Source of the DNA: a virus
Virus record (IMG/VR): IMGVR_UViG_3300042465_003266
Span: 1 to 23,955 of that record
Strand: one strand, 5' to 3'
DNA length: 23,955 nucleotides
Shown: positions 1,972 through 17,668 of the stretch, one piece after another
Numbering within the stretch: the first letter of the stretch is position 1
Layout of the letters: the number at the start of each line of letters is the position of its first letter
Made by a program: the position numbers and the translations under genes
Notes under the pieces: generated by a model
The model's database searches: none
Told to the model about the DNA's origin: nothing
The model's input: the letters and a program-made list of their open reading frames with translations, nothing else

Positions 1972-3234
1972 ATGCCAGCACCGTATAACTACATGGCCAT
2001 GATTCCACGGCCAAACCTTGCACAAAGCGTACAAGCTGGCGCCGCCCTCGGCGAAGCCATCGGCGGGGCTGTCCAAGCCGGACGCCAGCGCGAGCAGGAA
2101 GAGATGTTTCAGACCGACCTGCAATCCGCGCTCAAGAACCCAACCTTCGGATCATTCCGCGATCTGATGGCAAAATACCCAACGCAAGCCGAGAACATCG
2201 CCAAGCTAAACCAGACGATGAGCGATGAGGAGAAAAGGTCAAGCTACGACGCTGGTATTGACGTTTATACGGCGATGGAGAGCGGAGACAACACGACAGC
2301 AATCCGACTGATGGATGAGCAGATTGCTGCCAGAAAGAATGCAGGCCTTGACGTTGGCCGGCTTGAAAACATCAGGAACCAAATGCAAGCCAACCCAAAC
2401 GCTGCAAAAGCTGGCATCGGTCTGTGGCTTGCTGGCACTGACCCTAAGCGCTGGGGAGACACTGCCACTGCTTTTGAGATTCGTGCAAAGTCGAAGGCAG
2501 AGCGCGAGAAAGAAGAGATAAGCGTAAAGAAACTAGGCGAAGAAATCGGCCTTACCCGCGCACAAGTCAAACAGGCAGAAGCTGCTGCGGCAGCCTCGCG
2601 TGCAGCAGAGAAAAAGTCAGGCGCAGAAGCTGAAAAGGCAAAGGCAGAAGCCGAAAGGATCGCTCTTGGGATCATCTCAGAAGAGGAACGGCCAGAAGCC
2701 GAGGCGAGGTTACGCAAAGAGTACATAGACAACACCAAAGACTTTTCGTCTATCCGTGATGCCTATGGGAAAATTGTGTCTGTTTCTGATCCTAAAACGC
2801 CAGACGAGGAAGGGCCTTCGGATCTAGCCTTGATCTTTAGCTACATGAAGATGCTTGATCCTGGCTCCGTGGTTCGTGAAGGAGAGTTTGCTACAGCTCA
2901 GAACGCCGCCGGTGTTCCTGACAGAATCAGGAATCAATTTAACAATTTGCAGACTGGCGGCCGATTAAATCCAGAGCAAAGAAAGTCATTCAGGCGTCAA
3001 GCAGAAAAACTCTACGACGTTTCAGCCAAGCGCGAGCAGGAAGTCAGGACTGGTCTGTCTCGCATTGGGAAAGGGTATGGTTTGAACCTTGAAAATGTTT
3101 TCTATTCGCCTGGTGGCGTAGAAAAGCCAATGCCTCCAGCAGAACGTGCGGCACAGCCAACAAACCCGACGGTCAATGTTCCAGCTGGAAGCCCTCTCAG
3201 CAATGCAATGGACATATACGGCGGTAGAAAATAA
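1972..3234 (+). CDS. P22 gp20-like DNA ejection protein
   Basis: A 420-residue largely helical protein with a strong SD (AGGAG at 1958-1962). The N-terminus has GAALGEAIGGAVQAGRQREQEEMF, an amphipathic glycine-rich helix. Residues of roughly 160-245 are a long charged Ala/Glu/Lys coiled coil. The C-terminal third contains a globular segment (LALIFSYMKMLDPGSVVREGEFA) that recurs in ejection or internal virion proteins of podoviruses. By order between gp7-like and gp16-like genes and by length it corresponds to P22 gp20, one of three proteins delivered into the host with the DNA. Its stop overlaps the next start as TAATG (3232-3236). The call rests on synteny and composition; sequence families here diverge quickly. 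Confidence 0.72.
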   Translation: MPAPYNYMAMIPRPNLAQSVQAGAALGEAIGGAVQAGRQREQEEMFQTDLQSALKNPTFGSFRDLMAKYPTQAENIAKLNQTMSDEEKRSSYDAGIDVYTAMESGDNTTAIRLMDEQIAARKNAGLDVGRLENIRNQMQANPNAAKAGIGLWLAGTDPKRWGDTATAFEIRAKSKAEREKEEISVKKLGEEIGLTRAQVKQAEAAAAASRAAEKKSGAEAEKAKAEAERIALGIISEEERPEAEARLRKEYIDNTKDFSSIRDAYGKIVSVSDPKTPDEEGPSDLALIFSYMKMLDPGSVVREGEFATAQNAAGVPDRIRNQFNNLQTGGRLNPEQRKSFRRQAEKLYDVSAKREQEVRTGLSRIGKGYGLNLENVFYSPGGVEKPMPPAERAAQPTNPTVNVPAGSPLSNAMDIYGGRK

Positions 3235-5234
3235 TGGCGCAATATTCGTTGCAGGAAATAATGTCTGCCCGCGATGCTGCCAGTGCCGCCGGCGACACAG
3301 AAAGCGTACAGGTGCTGTCGGCTGAGATTGACAGACTCCGCGGCCAGATCACCAGCAGCGTGCAGTCGCCTGACACCACAGCAGCAGGCGTGGTTGGGGC
3401 TGTCACCCGCGGGGCCGCTCCTGTCGCCACTGGTGCCGCTCTGGGCGCTTTGGCTGGCGCTCCTGTTGGTGGTATAGGGGCAGTGCCAGGCGCAGCCACA
3501 GGCGCAGCCATCGGCGGCCTAAGTACGCTTGTGGGCGATCCTGTCATCAATGCCGTGAACACTGCTTTCGGCACAAACTACTCTACGCCGACTGAGGCGA
3601 TGGAGTACATGCTGACCCGGATCGGTGTTCCAGAGGCCAGAAGCGAGGCCGAGAAAATCATTCAGACGGCCGTGGCTGGTGGCGCTGGCGCTGGCGGCAT
3701 GGCTGGCCTTGGCAGATCCATGCAGGCCCTTGGCACCACGCCACAGGCGCAGGCTGTCGGCCAGACGTTGGCCGCTCAACCTGTCCAGCAGATTGCTGGC
3801 GGTGCGGCTGGTGCTGCCACTGGTGAACTGGCTGGTGAGGCTGCTCAGGCGATGGGTGCAGGCCCAGTTGTCCAGACGGCTGCTGAGCTGGTGGGTAGTG
3901 TGGCTGGAGGTGCGGCAGGTGCCAGAGCCGCAGGACTTCGGGCGCGTGAGACTGCCATCCAGTTGCCCTCTGACATTGCCGAGGCTCAACGCCGTGGCAT
4001 TCGCGTTCTGACAACTGACGTTGTGCCGCCCAGGACGTTCATGTCCAAGTGGGTGCAGACCGTTGGCGAGCGCATCCCGTTTGTTGGTACCAGCGGGCAA
4101 CGACTGGCGCAGCAGGAAGAGCGGATAAGCGCCGTAAAGGATGTGCTGCGCGACTATGGCGTCACTGACATATCGCCAAACGTGCTTGCCTCTCAAACGG
4201 ACGATATATTTAAGGAATTGGCCTCGAAGCGTGCCGCAGACCTTGATAGATATGTATCTGCGAAAAAAGACGTTATTGAGCGCCTTGATACGATGGGAAC
4301 AGTGCCGGTAGACCGCACTGTGGCAAAGATTGACGATGAAATCGCAAAGCTCACTGCGCTTAAATCGGTCCAGTACAAACCAGCGATTGACATACTGGAG
4401 GACTGGAAGGCGTCTATTCAGGGTCAGGGGCTAAAGAACATCGAGGAGCTGCGGAAGGGCATCGGTAGCGCGTTCTCTGACCCTGGCCTTGCTGGCATAA
4501 AAACCACAGGCGAAGCCGCTCTCAACCGCATCTATGCACCTTTGCGGCAGGATATGGCGGACTTCATCAAGGCAAACGGAGAGCGTCGCGACTTCGACAA
4601 GTGGTCAGTCGCAAACAAGCGGCTTGAAAATATGTCTGGCGAACTCGAATCTTCAGCCCTCAAAACTGCGCTCGACAAAGGGGATATTACTCCAGAAGTG
4701 GTCGATAAAATGCTGTTCAGCCAGAAGCCCAGCGAGATCCGGCTACTGTACCGCAACCTGACGCCAGACGGCCGCGCACTGGTCAGAACCAGAATCATGT
4801 CGAAAGTGGCTGAGAGGTCTGGCGGGCTGGATGAGATCAGCCCACAGAAGTACCTAAGCGCAGTCCAAAAGTACGGTAACTCGGTCGGGGTGTTCTTTAA
4901 GGATGACGACCTTAAAAACATCGAAGGTCTGTCGCGTGCGCTACAATTCACCAGAAGGGCGCAAGAGGCAGCCGTGGCCCCGCCGACTGGTGTGCAGGCT
5001 GTCCCGATCTTGGGCGCTGACTTATTGATGCAGACCTTTGGCAACTTCATGGGCGCGACAGCAGCCGCGACGACGGCCGGTCTAGCGGCTAGACTGTATG
5101 AGTCGAAGCCTGTCCGCAATGCGTTTGCCAAGGTAGCGCAGACGGTGGAAGGAACGCCAGAAGAGGCGGCAGCGATTAAACGTGCGATGGCAGCACTGCA
5201 ACAGCAGGCCACGCAACAGCAGGAGAAAGAATAA
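3234..5234 (+). CDS. P22 gp16-like DNA ejection protein
   Basis: A 666-residue protein, near P22 gp16 in size, coupled to its upstream neighbour by TAATG. Residues about 45-100 and 140-225 are extremely rich in Ala, Gly and Val, with several stretches able to insert in a membrane. The central and C-terminal parts (about 240-600) are charged and helical, with repeated D/E/K heptads. In P22, gp16 acts from the virion during DNA entry and can associate with membranes, which fits these hydrophobic tracts. No lysozyme or transglycosylase signature was visible. The stop overlaps the tailspike start, again as TAATG, and the SD of the tailspike gene (AGGAGA, 5221-5226) lies in its last codons. Confidence 0.72.
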   Translation: MAQYSLQEIMSARDAASAAGDTESVQVLSAEIDRLRGQITSSVQSPDTTAAGVVGAVTRGAAPVATGAALGALAGAPVGGIGAVPGAATGAAIGGLSTLVGDPVINAVNTAFGTNYSTPTEAMEYMLTRIGVPEARSEAEKIIQTAVAGGAGAGGMAGLGRSMQALGTTPQAQAVGQTLAAQPVQQIAGGAAGAATGELAGEAAQAMGAGPVVQTAAELVGSVAGGAAGARAAGLRARETAIQLPSDIAEAQRRGIRVLTTDVVPPRTFMSKWVQTVGERIPFVGTSGQRLAQQEERISAVKDVLRDYGVTDISPNVLASQTDDIFKELASKRAADLDRYVSAKKDVIERLDTMGTVPVDRTVAKIDDEIAKLTALKSVQYKPAIDILEDWKASIQGQGLKNIEELRKGIGSAFSDPGLAGIKTTGEAALNRIYAPLRQDMADFIKANGERRDFDKWSVANKRLENMSGELESSALKTALDKGDITPEVVDKMLFSQKPSEIRLLYRNLTPDGRALVRTRIMSKVAERSGGLDEISPQKYLSAVQKYGNSVGVFFKDDDLKNIEGLSRALQFTRRAQEAAVAPPTGVQAVPILGADLLMQTFGNFMGATAAATTAGLAARLYESKPVRNAFAKVAQTVEGTPEEAAAIKRAMAALQQQATQQQEKE

Positions 5235-14017: not shown

Positions 14018-14509
14018 TCAGCGCTTAGCCCAGGGCGGCGCTGCCTTTGCTGTCGCTTGCGTAGCCGCAGGTGCCTTTTCTTGCAGATACGGTGGTACAG
14101 GCGCGGCTGAACCAGTAACGGCCCTATAGGCTTTCACATCGTTTTTGTCGCCCCACTGCTCGTCACGGCGGACGCTGACCTTAATGGACAGTTGCCCGCC
14201 GATCAGCTCGTCAGTGTCGCGCACCGTGGCAAGGCCAACAGCCCGCATAATGTCGCCCAACTGCTGGCGGCCAATTTCCTCAGCCTTGGGGTTGCTGTTG
14301 CGCACGGTCACGTTACCGAACACTTTGCGGCCTTGGTGCGTGGGGCCGGTAATGTCATAGGCCATCGAAATATACTGGCCGTCTCCGGCCTTGGTAGGGC
14401 GCAGGTCAGCGCTGGTGATAGTAGCGTTGTACCAGCCTTCCGGCAGCAGGTCATAAGACCGTGATTCGGGAAGCTCAGAAACGCTGATTGGGTTGTCGAG
14501 AAAAGCCAT
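14018..14509 (-). CDS. DUF669 family protein, single-strand-DNA-binding-like
   Basis: The start ATG 14509 has AGGAG 8 nt upstream (163 residues); in-frame sequence farther upstream belongs to the neighbouring gene. The pattern LLPEGWYNATITSADLRPTK near residue 21, followed by a G-D-G-Q-Y-I strand and KVFGNVTVRNSNPKAEEIGR, is that of DUF669, an OB-like phage family usually found beside recombinases and thought to bind single-stranded DNA. The end is Ala/Pro-rich with PPWAKR, comparable to the C-terminal tip that single-strand-binding proteins use for contacts, although basic rather than acidic. Context (ATPase upstream, nuclease downstream) supports a recombination role. Confidence 0.82.
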   Translation of the reverse strand: MAFLDNPISVSELPESRSYDLLPEGWYNATITSADLRPTKAGDGQYISMAYDITGPTHQGRKVFGNVTVRNSNPKAEEIGRQQLGDIMRAVGLATVRDTDELIGGQLSIKVSVRRDEQWGDKNDVKAYRAVTGSAAPVPPYLQEKAPAATQATAKAAPPWAKR

Positions 14510-14514
14510 GGTAA

Positions 14515-14919
14515 TTACTCCTGATTGTCGATGGTGATTGCGAAAGATGGTCGGCCAGGCTGTACGGTGATTGCTCCCGCCAGTGGGCCAGTGATAGACG
14601 GGTCTGCTGCCCGCCAAGTTTTCATGTCAATTTCCGGCTTCCACCTGAAAAGGCTGGAGAGGTGATCTGACAGACCGTGTTCGGCTGCCAGCTCTTGCAG
14701 CATGTCGGAATCGACCTTGCGGGTCAGGCGGCCGACGACCTTAAAGATATAGCCACCCTGCTTGACGTTTTTGGTGCCGTCCAGATCGGCAGGCACCTCA
14801 AAGCGCATGGCAAGATTATCCTCGATGGCGCGGCGGCGTTCGATGGCTGCCTTTTCTGCCTCCTTGGCATCAATCCAAGCCTCAGCCAGCTTGGCATCGG
14901 ACATGTCCAGCAGGCTCAT
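14515..14919 (-). CDS. Conserved protein of the phage recombination block
   Basis: 134 residues, start overlapping the stop of the ATPase gene as ATGA. The N-terminal third is a charged helix (AEAWIDAKEAEKAAIERRRA), followed by YIFKVVGRLTRKVDSD, and a tryptophan-containing segment (SSLFRWKPEIDMKTW). The overall impression is of a coiled-coil start plus a small alpha/beta domain, similar in layout to phage nuclease-inhibitor-like or recombination accessory proteins. I know of similar proteins regularly placed between Sak4-like ATPases and DUF669 proteins, but their activity is not established to my knowledge. The gene ends 5 nt before the DUF669 start. Confidence 0.65.
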   Translation of the reverse strand: MSLLDMSDAKLAEAWIDAKEAEKAAIERRRAIEDNLAMRFEVPADLDGTKNVKQGGYIFKVVGRLTRKVDSDMLQELAAEHGLSDHLSSLFRWKPEIDMKTWRAADPSITGPLAGAITVQPGRPSFAITIDNQE

Positions 14920-15593
14920 TTGCCACCCCCGATTTTGCTGATGATTGCACCAAGGTCAGCAGGCTCCCACGCAGCCAGCTTGCCAGACCGATCCTTGGCA
15001 ACCCACAAACCGTCCGAGTCACACATAAGCGCCCGCTGGGTTGCCCCCTCTGCATCCTTCTCCACGCGCAGGGCAAGCACCTCATCGAAAAAATATGGCA
15101 GCGCTTGGCCGGTTTTGTTGCCCGGCATCGAGGGGCTGTACAGCATCCTGCCCATTTCGTCTTGGCTCTTTTCCAGCTTGGCGCTCATGTAGACGTGCTT
15201 GCCGGGCAGGTCGCGGAAGGCGCGGATGATGTCAGTCATCTGTTCCTGCATTGCGCCATACGCTTGCCGCGGGTCTTTGGATGCCTTCTTCTCGGTGTTC
15301 AGGCAGACCTCGGCAATCTCGCTGATTGAGTCCAGCGCCACCGACTCAAACTGCGCGGCCTCTGTGCTGCTGGTCAGCCAGCGGTAAGCCTCCTGCAAGG
15401 TCGCCATCGAGTTGACCTCGATGTAGGGCAAATCTGCATCCTGAATGGACAGAAGGCCGCCCTCGGCGCTCAGGACTACCGGCTTTGGCAAGGTGGGTAT
15501 CAGACTGGTCTTGCCAGCCCCGGCCTGTCCGTACACCAGCAGCTTGACGCCGTTGGCGGTCAGGCGGCCGCTACGTTTAAGGATCATGCTCAT
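14916..15593 (-). CDS. RecA-fold ATPase, Sak4-like (AAA_24)
   Basis: 225 residues with Walker A GQAGAGKTS (22-30) and a Walker B-like strand ending in LDS (FESVALDSISEI, Asp88). Further on there is a conserved segment HVYMSAKLEKSQDEMGRM and a late YFFDEVLALRV strand. This is the AAA_24 / Sak4-like family, whose members are single-RecA-domain phage proteins that promote single-strand annealing with a single-strand-binding partner. The following DUF669 gene and the Cas4-like nuclease complete such a set. The start ATG overlaps the preceding stop (ATGA); a second ATG two codons later is an alternative. Confidence 0.85.
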   Translation of the reverse strand: MSMILKRSGRLTANGVKLLVYGQAGAGKTSLIPTLPKPVVLSAEGGLLSIQDADLPYIEVNSMATLQEAYRWLTSSTEAAQFESVALDSISEIAEVCLNTEKKASKDPRQAYGAMQEQMTDIIRAFRDLPGKHVYMSAKLEKSQDEMGRMLYSPSMPGNKTGQALPYFFDEVLALRVEKDAEGATQRALMCDSDGLWVAKDRSGKLAAWEPADLGAIISKIGGGK

Positions 15594-15847
15594 GCTGCCA
15601 CCTCTTCTACTATGCAGGCAGAAAGGCGCTTTTTCTTGCCGACTTCGCGCTGGGAGATGCCAGCCGCGTTGAAGGTTTGGCGCTTTGCCCCGGTACGGCT
15701 CTGGTAGCCGTTAGGAGCCTCGCCATCAATTGTCAGCACCTTAACTACAACAGCCATGCCTTTACTTACCTGCTCAGCCTCTGCCGTTATTTCGACAGAC
15801 CGCCAGCCGGCAGGAACCATCACACTTGCTTGGTATTTAATGATCAT
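15590..15847 (-). CDS. 85-residue hypothetical protein
   Basis: ATG 15847 has AGGA 7 nt upstream and is favoured over the in-frame ATG at 15937, which lies inside a strong hairpin and lacks an SD. The product is beta-rich with a basic tail: MIIKYQASVMVPAGWRSVEI at the start, AVVVKVLTIDGEAPNGYQSR in the middle, then GKKKRLSACIVEEVAA. No motif was recognised. Its stop overlaps the start of the Sak4-like gene (ATGA), so it is probably translated together with the recombination genes. It could be a small accessory nucleic-acid-binding protein, but the sequence does not prove it. Confidence 0.6.
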   Translation of the reverse strand: MIIKYQASVMVPAGWRSVEITAEAEQVSKGMAVVVKVLTIDGEAPNGYQSRTGAKRQTFNAAGISQREVGKKKRLSACIVEEVAA

Positions 15848-15903
15848 TTGTAAGTCCTCGGTTGATACGCCTGTCGGGGAATCCGGTCGGCGTTTGGTCA
15901 GTG

Positions 15904-15946
15904 TAGACCCTGATGCCCACTCGTCAAGAATGGGCATGGAGGTCTA
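15904..15946 (-). promoter_or_regulatory. 43-nt RNA hairpin beginning at a stop codon
   Basis: Read on the minus strand, TAGACC pairs with GGTCTA (outer 6 bp). A symmetric 3x3 internal loop follows, then ATGCCCA pairs with TGGGCAT plus three more pairs (TTC with GAG, one of them G-U) around a 5-nt TTGAC loop. The first three bases are the TAG stop of the 75-residue gene. The hairpin buries the ATG at 15937 and ends 57 nt before the start at 15847. No T-run follows, so it is not a typical terminator; mRNA processing, stability or translation control are possible. Confidence 0.6.
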
Positions 15947-16171
15947 GTGCTTAGCCCCGTATACGCTAACTTGGCGGTTGCAAATGACAATCACCGATCC
16001 ATCATAAAATGTATAACTGGTCGTTTCGTTCTCCCAGTCCTGATGCACGTCTTGCGCGATTTCCTCGCAATCCTCAATAAGGATTTTCCAGTCGAAATCT
16101 CCAAAAGTTTCTACACCATTAGCTGGATTGATTGAAACGTAAAAGGCTTTGATTCTTGATGCAATGTTCAT
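15944..16171 (-). CDS. 75-residue hypothetical early protein
   Basis: ATG 16171 has GGGAG 8 nt upstream, in the same hairpin-plus-ribosome-binding-site arrangement found in front of the 78-residue gene at 16805. The protein is acidic with a mixed alpha/beta pattern (MNIASRIKAFYVSINPANGV, DFDWKILIEDCEEIAQDVHQ, then YDGSVIVICNRQVSVYG). No family was recognised. It is the second gene of the second duplicated regulatory unit. Its TAG stop is the first element of a strong hairpin. As an early phage protein of small size it could modify host functions, but nothing in the sequence indicates a target. Confidence 0.6.
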   Translation of the reverse strand: MNIASRIKAFYVSINPANGVETFGDFDWKILIEDCEEIAQDVHQDWENETTSYTFYDGSVIVICNRQVSVYGAKH

Positions 16172-16207
16172 AACTGCTACTCCCTGAGGGGCGCTTACGC
16201 GCCCTTC
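16172..16207 (-). repeat. Stop-straddling hairpin plus RBS, copy 1
   Basis: On the minus strand, GGGCGC and GCGCCC (16204-16199 and 16194-16189) enclose GTAA, whose TAA is the stop codon of the 101-residue gene. The downstream arm is followed by GGGAGTAGCAG and then the ATG at 16171. The same 19 bases AAGGGCGCGTAAGCGCCCC, and the same distance to the next ATG, occur at 16806-16841. Confidence 0.8.
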
Positions 16208-16500
16208 CTCGCGTGGATTTTTGAGCATTCTTCGGTCAGGATGCGCTCTTGCTCTTCCTGCGATACTGGCTCCCACTGGTCAATCTCGTGCTGCTCAATG
16301 GCGGCCATGCCTTGGTCTGTAACGCCGACAGTCTCGCCGTTCGTCCAAACCAGTCCGGCCTCAAGTGCCTTTGAAAACACGCCTTTGTCATGGTTGGTTT
16401 TTACCACTTCGCTGATCCAAATATGTCGACCACCAAAATCATAAAATTTTGATTCATCAATGATTGCTTGCATGAACTTGATTTGATTTTCGGTTGCCAT
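16195..16500 (-). CDS. 101-residue hypothetical early protein
   Basis: ATG 16500 follows the repeated leader, which supplies an AGAGG-type SD. The N-terminal helix (MATENQIKFMQAIIDESKFY) and central part (KGVFSKALEAGLVWTNGETV, then GVTDQGMAAIEQ) give a helix-helix-beta-wing pattern reminiscent of a winged-helix domain, with an acidic C-terminal tail. No family was recognised. It ends in lysine-glycine-alanine and a TAA stop inside a hairpin, exactly like the 164-residue gene of the first unit, although the two proteins are otherwise unrelated. It may be a DNA-binding or protein-binding early regulator; this is only a hint from the layout. Confidence 0.6.
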   Translation of the reverse strand: MATENQIKFMQAIIDESKFYDFGGRHIWISEVVKTNHDKGVFSKALEAGLVWTNGETVGVTDQGMAAIEQHEIDQWEPVSQEEQERILTEECSKIHARKGA

Positions 16501-16550
16501 GTCTCTTTACCTCTGGTTACTGCCGGTCGGGTGATTCCGTTTGGCATAGG
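16501..16550 (-). repeat. Repeated 5' leader, copy 1
   Basis: The 50 bases before the ATG at 16500 match the 49 bases before the ATG at 17323. Both begin CCTATGCCAA and share CGGAAT, ACCGGCA and TAACCAGAGGTA; by hand alignment 37 of the first 43 positions agree. Each contains the SD-like AGAGG close to the start codon. The downstream proteins are unrelated, so the repeat is regulatory rather than a gene duplication remnant. Confidence 0.8.
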
Positions 16551-16553
16551 AAT

Positions 16554-16582
16554 ATATTAACCGTAAGGTTAAAATCCTGCAA
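16554..16582 (-). promoter_or_regulatory. Putative early promoter before 101-residue gene, with operator-like palindrome
   Basis: On the minus strand, TTGCAG (16582-16577), a 17-nt spacer and TAATAT (16559-16554) resemble a sigma-70 promoter. TTGCAG lies 26 nt before CCTATGCC, exactly as in the second leader. The spacer and -10 overlap the perfect inverted repeat TTAACC-GTAA-GGTTAA (16557-16572), well placed to be an operator. The -35 lies inside the 3' end of the 78-residue gene. Confidence 0.5.
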
Positions 16583-16805
16583 GACCTTTTTTCTCGTAAT
16601 ACTGAAAATCTTTGAAGTAGCCTACCCATTGTTCAAGCGTCAGGTCGCTAACCTTATAGACGTAGACAGAGTTAGATCGGCCCCACTTGGGACTCATCCC
16701 GCCGATGGACTCGCCATCGAAGTAGAAATAGCCTTTACCCTTGATAAGCTCGGCCGTTGGGTCGAGCTTGCGGATGGCTTTGTTGACAGTGGCAATCTTG
16801 ATCAT
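16569..16805 (-). CDS. 78-residue conserved early phage protein
   Basis: ATG 16805 is preceded by GGGAGTAGCAG after the stop-straddling hairpin. The protein begins IKIATVNKAIRKLDPTAELI and continues with KGKGYFYFDGESIG, SVYVYKVSDLTLEQW and an aromatic C-terminus. This pattern (a helix, then G-x-G-Y-F-Y-F and S-V-Y-V-Y-x-x-x-D-L-T-L-E-Q-W) recurs in small phage and plasmid proteins of unknown function. The mixed alpha/beta layout with exposed aromatics suggests a compact binding domain. It is the second gene of the first duplicated regulatory unit. Its stop TAA overlaps the operator-like palindrome of the next promoter. Confidence 0.7.
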   Translation of the reverse strand: MIKIATVNKAIRKLDPTAELIKGKGYFYFDGESIGGMSPKWGRSNSVYVYKVSDLTLEQWVGYFKDFQYYEKKGLAGF

Positions 16806-16841
16806 TGCTGCTACTCCCGGTGGGGCGCTTACGCGCCCTTT
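16806..16841 (-). repeat. Stop-straddling hairpin plus RBS, copy 2
   Basis: GGGCGC and GCGCCC (16838-16833 and 16828-16823, minus strand) enclose GTAA with the TAA stop of the 164-residue gene. GGGAGTAGCAG and the ATG at 16805 follow at the same distance as in copy 1. The three bases between hairpin and RBS differ (ACC here, TCA there), while stem and RBS are identical. Confidence 0.8.
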
Positions 16842-17323
16842 ACGTTTACGAGTACCCGCTGGTGCAGGCGTTGGATAGTGTGGCCGCCAGCTACGATGGA
16901 CTGGATTTTTACGCGCATTGTGTCGTTGACGGTGAAAATTCCGTCAAATCCGTCTGTGCAGTAAACAACCTCGGCGCTGTTCACCGTCTCAACACCAGCC
17001 TTGGCAAGCTTGGCAGCAATGCTCTGGTTGCGCTTCTTTGCAGTGGCAGCCGCATTTTTGCGCATGAATGCTTCGACGTTGGAAATGCTGTTGCCATTGA
17101 AAACGCTGTACCAAGTCTTACCACCACAAATTGCCCAGAGTTTCTGATACTTGCCTCCCAACTCGCCTTTGGCGTTGAGGATTTTGTATTCCTCAGACTT
17201 TTTGAACTCGCGCAGTGCGTTTGCGCGGTCAAGAGCCCATGCAACGTCGCCCTCAGCGATCTGCCCATCCTGCTCTGCGAAGAAAGGGGCAAGTTCTTTG
17301 GCAATGGTTTCGATGGCGTTCAT
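16829..17323 (-). CDS. 164-residue conserved early phage protein
   Basis: First gene of the early minus-strand operon, with promoter and leader directly upstream. The N-terminal part is helical (AIETIAKELAPFFAEQDGQI, then EEYKILNAKGELGGKYQKLW). The C-terminal part (about residues 95-164) contains NQSIAAKLAKAGVETVNSAE, then YCTDGFDGIFTVND and QSIVAGGHTIQRLHQRVLV. The TDGFDGxF and IxAGGxxIQxxHxRVLV pattern recurs in early proteins of many phages, often close to replication genes; its biochemical role is unknown to me. It lies where a lambda-like phage would carry the repressor gene opposite cro, but has no HTH or peptidase motif, so it is not a CI homologue. It ends K-G-A within the repeated hairpin. 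Confidence 0.7.
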   Translation of the reverse strand: MNAIETIAKELAPFFAEQDGQIAEGDVAWALDRANALREFKKSEEYKILNAKGELGGKYQKLWAICGGKTWYSVFNGNSISNVEAFMRKNAAATAKKRNQSIAAKLAKAGVETVNSAEVVYCTDGFDGIFTVNDTMRVKIQSIVAGGHTIQRLHQRVLVNVKGA

Positions 17324-17372
17324 TGTCTGTACCTCTGGTTAGTGCCGGTTGGTCAATTCCGCTTGGCATAGG
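17324..17372 (-). repeat. Repeated 5' leader, copy 2
   Basis: Second copy of the leader described at 16501-16550, ending at the ATG of the 164-residue gene. Differences are concentrated in TTGA against TCAC (after CGGAA) and a few single bases; CCTATGCCAA, ACCGGCA and TAACCAGAGGTA are kept. Confidence 0.8.
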
Positions 17373-17375
17373 GAA

Positions 17376-17404
17376 ACTATACCTGCGGCCCTCCTGCACT
17401 GCAA
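17376..17404 (-). promoter_or_regulatory. Putative main early promoter (leftward)
   Basis: Minus strand: TTGCAG (17404-17399), 17-nt spacer, TATAGT (17381-17376; five of six match TATAAT). The same TTGCAG lies 26 nt before CCTATGCC in both leaders. Transcription would start about 45 nt before the 164-residue gene. The palindrome found in the other copy is absent, so the two promoters may be controlled differently. Confidence 0.55.
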
Positions 17405-17454: not shown

Positions 17455-17477
17455 CCTGTTGATTCAACCCCAACAGG
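17455..17477 (+). promoter_or_regulatory. Inverted repeat covering the cro ribosome binding site
   Basis: CCTGTTG (17455-17461) and CAACAGG (17471-17477) form a 7-bp stem with a 9-nt loop. The 3' arm contains the first bases of the SD AGGAGG (17475-17480). In RNA this would hide the SD; in DNA it is a 23-bp palindrome that a dimeric repressor could bind. Both readings are open. Confidence 0.5.
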
Positions 17478-17488
17478 AGGCAATCCGC

Positions 17489-17668
17489 GTGACAACCCAG
17501 GAAGCAATAGACCACTACGGCAGTATCAGGGCATTGGCTGATGCCCTCGATATGTGGCCTCAGGTTATCTATAGGTGGGGCGAGTACCCGCCAATGGCCC
17601 GGCAGTACGAGATACAGGTCAAAACAAAAAACAAACTCAAGGCCGAGAAACAAGATGCAAAAAGGTGA
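17489..17668 (+). CDS. cro: Cro-like repressor (P22 Cro / YdaS-type)
   Basis: A 59-residue protein from GTG 17489 with a perfect AGGAGG 8 nt upstream. In-frame ATG 17429 would add residues encoded by the control region and is unlikely. The HTH is TTQEAIDHYGSIRALADALD (2-21), turn MWPQ, recognition helix VIYRWGEYPP; the arrangement IDHYGS-x-x-A-x-A-D-A-L and W-x-x-x-x-P matches P22 Cro, which has ALGISDAAVSQWKEVIP at the same place. The C-terminus is basic (KTKNKLKAEKQDAKR). It is the first gene of the rightward operon, divergent from the early leftward operon, as cro is in lambdoid phages, and overlaps the primase gene by 14 nt. Confidence 0.85.
   Translation: MTTQEAIDHYGSIRALADALDMWPQVIYRWGEYPPMARQYEIQVKTKNKLKAEKQDAKR

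Follow-up and report, generated by a model that had tools for sequence, protein, structure and literature searches.

Layout of the leftward early region

The window, by which we mean the whole 23,955-base virus record that was analyzed, carries five small minus-strand genes between a Cro-like gene and a gene for a Sak4-like single-stranded DNA (ssDNA) annealing protein. The best explanation of this slot region is that a tailed phage has its leftward early region here. The five genes (A to E) fall into three slots, each with an inferred promoter and a leader, as follows.

17489-17668, plus strand: Cro-like regulator, divergent from the slots (PF14549 P22_Cro, E 2.3e-15)
17376-17404, minus strand: inferred promoter P1 of slot 1 (TTGCAG, 17 nt, TATAGT); the hairpin begins 7 nt past the -10
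17327-17370, minus strand: leader 1, TGCC-AAG-CGG-AAUUGA-CCA-ACC-GGCA plus a tail with the ribosome-binding site (covariance model E 6.7e-6; covariation in the family)
16829-17323, minus strand: slot 1 gene A, 164 aa
16823-16838, minus strand: first stop-in-loop hairpin, GGGCGC-GUAA-GCGCCC, with the gene A stop codon in the tetraloop; the GGGAG ribosome-binding site of gene B follows
16569-16805, minus strand: slot 1 gene B, 78 aa (phrog_9154)
16554-16582, minus strand: inferred promoter P2 (TTGCAG, 17 nt, TAATAT)
16505-16548, minus strand: leader 2, TGCC-AAA-CGG-AAUCAC-CCG-ACC-GGCA plus tail (covariance model E 2.0e-7)
16195-16500, minus strand: slot 2 gene C, 101 aa
16189-16204, minus strand: second stop-in-loop hairpin, GGGCGC-GUAA-GCGCCC, with the gene C stop codon in the tetraloop
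15944-16171, minus strand: slot 2 gene D, 75 aa
15900-15936, minus strand: inferred promoter P3 (TTGACG at 15922-15927, 16 nt, TACACT at 15900-15905)
15852-15894, minus strand: leader 3, ACGCC-GAC-CGG-AUUCC-CCG-ACA-GGCGU plus tail (covariance model E 1.9e-6)
15590-15847, minus strand: slot 3 gene E, 85 aa, listed as a 115-aa open reading frame from 15937
14916-15593, minus strand: Sak4-like ssDNA annealing protein (phrog_124, E 1.2e-55), the conserved gene behind the leader

Comparison of relatives gave the composition of the recombination operon as Sak4, DUF7173, one more small gene, and a Cas4-type exonuclease. No near-identical match to the region was found among annotated phages.

A preliminary description of this DNA had read the region as a cassette occurring twice in tandem on the minus strand, and both the order (leader 1, 164 aa, hairpin, 78 aa; leader 2, 101 aa, hairpin, 75 aa) and the coordinates were confirmed. 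The two leaders that it reported are present as repeat D3 (85% identity across 47 nt), but it missed a third, more diverged copy at 15852-15894, just outside the interval that it delimited. Because leader 3 lies there, the start of gene E is most likely the ATG at 15847, giving 85 aa. In six close relatives leader 3 is found immediately upstream of Sak4, and gene E is absent; gene E is most likely a further slot gene. The number of leaders varies between relatives, a point that the description had raised: there are three in the window and in contig L087 and two each in L006, L007, L085, and L086, versus one in each of 19 long relatives (30 to 41 kb) searched with the covariance model, one of which had an additional weak match (E 0.14). 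The window's subgroup has one to three units of hairpin plus ribosome-binding site between Cro and Sak4.

Palindromes accompany several of these elements. A perfect TTAACC-N4-GGTTAA palindrome lies within the P2 spacer (16557-16572), and a version with one mismatch lies upstream of P1 (17423-17438), where L085 and L086 have TTGACCTCAAGGTCAA. Both are candidate Cro or repressor operators, and, if they act as such, slots 1 and 2 may be repressed together. A further palindrome, TGCCCA-N11-TGGGCA (15914-15936), encloses the -35 of P3; it is kept in five close relatives (L006, L007, and L085 to L087) and absent in L004, which has a Mom gene upstream. In the 5' untranslated region (UTR) of Cro (~17456-17480, plus strand), CTGTTG-N9-CAACAG overlaps the ribosome-binding site and may be an unrelated hairpin or an operator.

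Turnover of the slot genes

Seven contigs whose Sak4 proteins are at least 90% identical have six different slot contents. The window has 164+78, 101+75, and 85 aa in its slots; L085 and L086 have 95 aa, L087 has 102+73 and 43 aa, L006 has 84 aa, and L007 has 77+73 aa, the 73-aa protein being a relative of gene B. The slots of L004 hold a 76-aa gene B relative and a 219-aa Mom protein. The L004 Mom gene (3171-3830, minus strand; PF25680, E 8.5e-33) occupies the slot directly before a Sak4 gene that is 96% identical. Many other relatives have no slot gene at all.

The preliminary description had proposed fixed noncoding brackets around exchangeable small genes, and this stands: relatives with Sak4 proteins 90 to 99% identical have other genes behind the same leader, and the slots do not always hold the same four genes. 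Between slot leaders (leaving out the identical pair L085/L086), identity is 81 to 100% in the hairpin and 57 to 100% in the segment with the ribosome-binding site, compared with 33 to 90% in the promoter and 18 to 37% in the gene, the last being at chance level. The best conserved unit would thus be the 5' UTR of the mRNA rather than the promoter. As judged from these comparisons, slot genes are exchanged between phages, the segments with the hairpin and ribosome-binding site staying in place.

The nearest relatives of the five slot genes fall in different phage groups. Gene A is related to genes of Pseudomonas phage pf16 and of Rhizobium, Rhodobacter, and Vibrio phages; a search of viral contigs found no relative of this 164-aa protein. 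Gene B is closest to genes of large Pseudomonas, Serratia, and Sphingobium phages, gene C to one of Acinetobacter phage Ac42, gene D to one of Pararheinheimera phage KLER1-1, and gene E to those of Vibrio and Shewanella phages. Genes B and D, which have no detectable similarity, were ruled out as homologs of each other. AlphaFold2 models built from the single sequences of genes A and C were unusable, at mean pLDDT values of 40.5 and 45.9. An anti-host or anti-defense role had also been suggested for the slot genes; the Mom DNA-modification gene in one relative's slot speaks for it, and the other slot genes have no known function.

Where similarity stops bears on how this variation arose. In the window's subgroup it ends near the segment with the hairpin and ribosome-binding site on the gene side, and near-identical hairpins are carried by different promoters; both points argue against reading the brackets as ordinary shared regulation, with gene content varying by general phage mosaicism independently of them. 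We consider that reading unlikely, although turnover of small genes beside early promoters is common in phages and many slot genes in other subgroups stand behind a single leader without any duplication. Recombination at the leader, the reading that we prefer, is suggested by where similarity starts and stops, a pattern that selection on a fixed 5' UTR could also give.

The primase region of L085 and L086 is just 31 to 35% identical to that of the window despite their close Sak4, so that the replication module beyond Cro also differs in these two contigs.

The leader as a structured RNA element

The leader was compared in 80 contigs with a related primase and 80 with a related Sak4, and nearly all of these ~160 contigs for which the upstream region was covered had it ahead of the Sak4 operon. 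It has an outer stem of 4 to 8 bp, a 3x3 internal loop, a 3-bp inner stem of the form CNG/CNG, and a loop of 5 to 7 nt. The outer stem varies freely yet stays base-paired, and the A-rich internal loop and the AU loop are conserved. A direct search for the hairpin was positive in 59 of 63 distinct upstream regions, versus 119 of 1,260 shuffled regions. Among 75 distinct leaders, 23 versions of the four inner outer-stem pairs were seen, nearly every one fully complementary, and the inner stem occurs as CGG/CCG, CAG/CTG, CTG/CAG, and CCG/CGG.

In the founding set of 28 leaders, paired cells made up 93.3% versus 65.0% after shuffling, with a covariation score of 0.695 versus 0.179 (slid controls, at most 0.177). 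Because the founding leaders were partly chosen by pairing, the count was repeated on a second set of 42 leaders, which had been reached via Sak4 and had entered no model; in an alignment fitted to the model, and hence leaning toward the structure, paired cells made up 93.6% versus 66.5% and the covariation score was 0.679 versus 0.186. On the Sak4 tree, the five scored pairs underwent at least 6, 19, 12, 16, and 14 changes of pair type (at least 67 in sum). The conserved positions are the unpaired ones and the stems vary: the 5' side of the internal loop reads purine and then A (99%), the 3' side A (97%) and then A or C, and an A and a U of the apical loop are conserved at 92% each. Leader 1 is weak on its own, with a C.A mismatch in the inner stem and a hairpin that is not the minimum-energy fold. 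By the covariation across the family, the leader is a structured RNA element and goes beyond a mere two-copy repeat.

No Rfam family matched the window or seven relatives at gathering thresholds; relaxed searches gave only weak, unrelated matches in the slot region and none at E values up to 5 for two leader regions. A literature search turned up no relevant account of such a phage leader, and the motif is probably undescribed. A CsrA-type GGA site was ruled out, as GGA is not conserved (CAG, CTG, and CCG also occur).

The tie to Sak4 was also seen in a scan of 2.9 million viral contigs with two exact leader DNA patterns, which was independent of Sak4. It yielded 35 newly listed stretches, a few of which overlap contigs already seen, and in every one of the 35 Sak4 follows on the same strand, either 43 to 53 nt away or beyond an insert of up to ~490 nt. 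The leader start usually lies near the expected start of transcription, and the tail holds the ribosome-binding site. In 41 of the 75 distinct leaders, the hairpin starts 7 to 8 nt past the best -10-like hexamer. A promoter scan of the single window was not above chance; plausible -10 and -35 hexamers of the sigma-70 type were seen at similar spacing to the hairpin. These positions suggest that transcription starts at the hairpin, which would then form the 5' end of the mRNA.

A hairpin so placed could be passive. 5' stem-loops stabilize bacterial mRNAs, and in most leaders the hairpin begins near the expected transcription start, as it would if it shielded the mRNA from 5'-dependent decay with no specific protein reader. 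Such a stem, however, would have no need of the internal and apical loop sequences that are conserved while the stems vary, and just one operon per genome has the hairpin in the long relatives; we regard this alternative as doubtful. It is very unlikely that the leader serves the leftward operon in the manner of HK022 put, as a processive antitermination RNA. Its PL-like position at the start of that operon would fit, but put sites span ~70 nt and have two stem-loops, whereas the leader is a single hairpin of ~26 to 35 nt lying close to the first start codon (usually 43 to 53 nt from leader start to start codon), and it has no counterpart elsewhere in the long relatives. Least probable of all is that the leader acts as DNA, as a palindromic operator at which a repressor binds just past the promoter. 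Both sides of the internal loop are A-rich on one strand, which makes the leader non-palindromic as DNA, and the stems diverge freely with pairing kept, some of it as G-U pairs. In favor of an operator, the element adjoins the promoter and the divergent Cro gene, and true palindromes lie beside P2 and P3.

Conservation of the loops would instead fit a hairpin that is bound by a protein. Under this reading, the hairpin would be a cis-acting mRNA element at the start of transcription, most likely read by a phage or host RNA-binding protein through the A-rich internal loop and the AU loop, and the bound protein would set the translation or the decay of the early mRNA. Strong covariation, the lack of an Rfam match, and the tie to one recombinase operon together suggest that the motif marks a probable regulatory interaction between RNA and partner. 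It is quite possible, and we put it forward tentatively, that the leaders constitute an undescribed RNA family in which a protein-recognized 5'-terminal hairpin controls the Sak4 operon across a wide phage group and which some phages reuse as a portable tag before swappable accessory genes. The group consists mostly of uncultured phages, whose DNA-recombination operon mRNA would begin with a conserved and apparently uncatalogued hairpin. Among isolated phages with a related Sak4, Alteromonas phage PB15 and Idiomarinaceae phage 1N2-2 have just diverged forms of it.

Gene-end hairpins and relation to known systems

The second bracket is of another kind. Both copies read GGGCGC-GTAA-GCGCCC, and the tetraloop contains the TAA that stops the upstream gene; the segments spanning hairpin and ribosome-binding site (repeat D5) are 88% identical across 42 nt, and the folds predicted with flanks have energies of -13.5 and -15.1 kcal/mol. 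The pattern occurs at just two places in the window, and 0 of 100 shuffles gave as many. No U-tract follows either hairpin on the sense strand, and the terminator scan lists neither on the minus strand, so that by sequence they are not intrinsic terminators. A GC hairpin loop overlaps the stop codon in 7 of 46 slot genes versus 6 of 542 core gene ends, a difference whose P value (Fisher, 1.4e-5) is merely indicative because related sequences share descent. The stems differ (GGGCGC, GGCGCC, TGCCAGC), and the gene B relatives in L004 and L007 also stand behind a stop-in-loop hairpin. The idea that a gene-end hairpin is a slot-specific signal is weakened, since one core gene also has a GC hairpin behind it in 71 of 109 relatives. 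In the window, the hairpin GGCCCC-ATGGAC-GGGGCC lies just downstream of this core gene, which is on the minus strand and ends at 14018. In pf16, a GGGGCC-UUCG-GGCCCC hairpin follows the gene A copy at the same position.

The second bracket thus resembles known intercistronic hairpins, except that its stop codon is unusually placed. The T4 UUCG hairpins are stable intercistronic hairpins; like the present ones, those of T4 and pf16 lie between genes, combine a GC-rich stem with a stable tetraloop, and have a ribosome-binding site behind them. They differ in that the stop codon lies in the loop here, in 7 of 46 slot genes. The preliminary description had treated the two brackets as equals. Both exist, but the leader is near-universal at the Sak4 operon of these phages and the stop-in-loop hairpin is facultative.

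Comparison of the relatives shows a conserved predicted hairpin in the presumed 5' UTR of the Sak4 operon and, in one subgroup, extra copies with replaceable genes behind them. The explanation that we consider probable as a whole is that this hairpin was copied before swappable slot genes, that the repeats recombine, that the hairpin acts in cis on the mRNA, and that the stop-in-loop hairpin separates gene A from gene B. Replacement of slot genes would proceed by homologous recombination between the short repeats of hairpin and ribosome-binding site, with the Sak4 annealing protein and the exonuclease of the phage itself assisting. Phage annealing proteins pair sequences of 40 to 50 bp and also divergent ones (PMC8093625), and since this length is about the size of the repeats, such proteins would be a natural agent for the exchange. 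Transcription would continue through the stop-in-loop hairpin, which may stabilize the mRNA by blocking 3'-5' decay. If the hairpin is indeed a portable control tag, a gene inserted behind it would join the same early regulation as the Sak4 operon. The region would then offer a testable case of phages adding accessory genes under existing early control in which the best conserved part is the 5' UTR of the mRNA and not a promoter or terminator. The slots are also a place in which to seek small anti-host or anti-defense genes, given the Mom antirestriction gene in one of them.

Related arrangements have been described. Morons are inserts composed of promoter, gene, and terminator; the slots resemble them as extra genes with their own transcription signals between core genes, but the units here copy the 5' UTR element of the resident operon and have no evident terminator. 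The PeSL (promoter-early stem-loop) of T4-type phages is reportedly an early promoter paired with a terminator stem-loop. The fixed part here differs in being a 5' UTR hairpin plus ribosome-binding site that follows promoters of varying sequence; by sequence, no terminator stem-loop is supplied by the gene-end hairpins, which lack a U-tract. The likeness lies in the shuffling of slot genes between close relatives at a cassette with near-identical leaders, and shuffling of genes at regulatory cassettes is what is attributed to PeSLs in the passages of PMC4503421 that cite Arbiol 2010 and Comeau 2014. The SAS and ESAS repeats of cluster K mycobacteriophages lie directly upstream of several start codons, about half with a 17-bp imperfect inverted repeat (PMC3203893). 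They recur at many genes with a sequence consensus per genome, whereas most relatives have a single leader per genome, and it is the structure of the leader more than its stem sequence that is conserved. The slot arrangement resembles PeSLs and SAS/ESAS without having all the defining features of either; with these as precedents (for PeSLs, as far as those passages of PMC4503421 go; PMC3203893), the claim that it is a new kind of arrangement could not be upheld. The T4 gene 43 RNA operator, a hairpin ~40 bases upstream of the start codon that is bound by the gene product (PMC3014915), is likewise a 5' UTR hairpin of a phage DNA metabolism gene. The present element differs from it in also standing before unrelated genes and in that its binding protein is putative.

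The same layout with unrelated sequences occurs upstream of Sak4 in another subgroup (L052, L056, L057, L066, L074, L083, and L084), in which CAACCAAGGA precedes the next gene. Four of these contigs (L052, L056, L057, and L083) have a GGGGGCC/GGCCCCC hairpin behind the first slot gene. Upstream of Sak4 in L139, L143, L147, and L150, slot genes are followed by GC stems that differ from one another and carry GCAA (GNRA) tetraloops.
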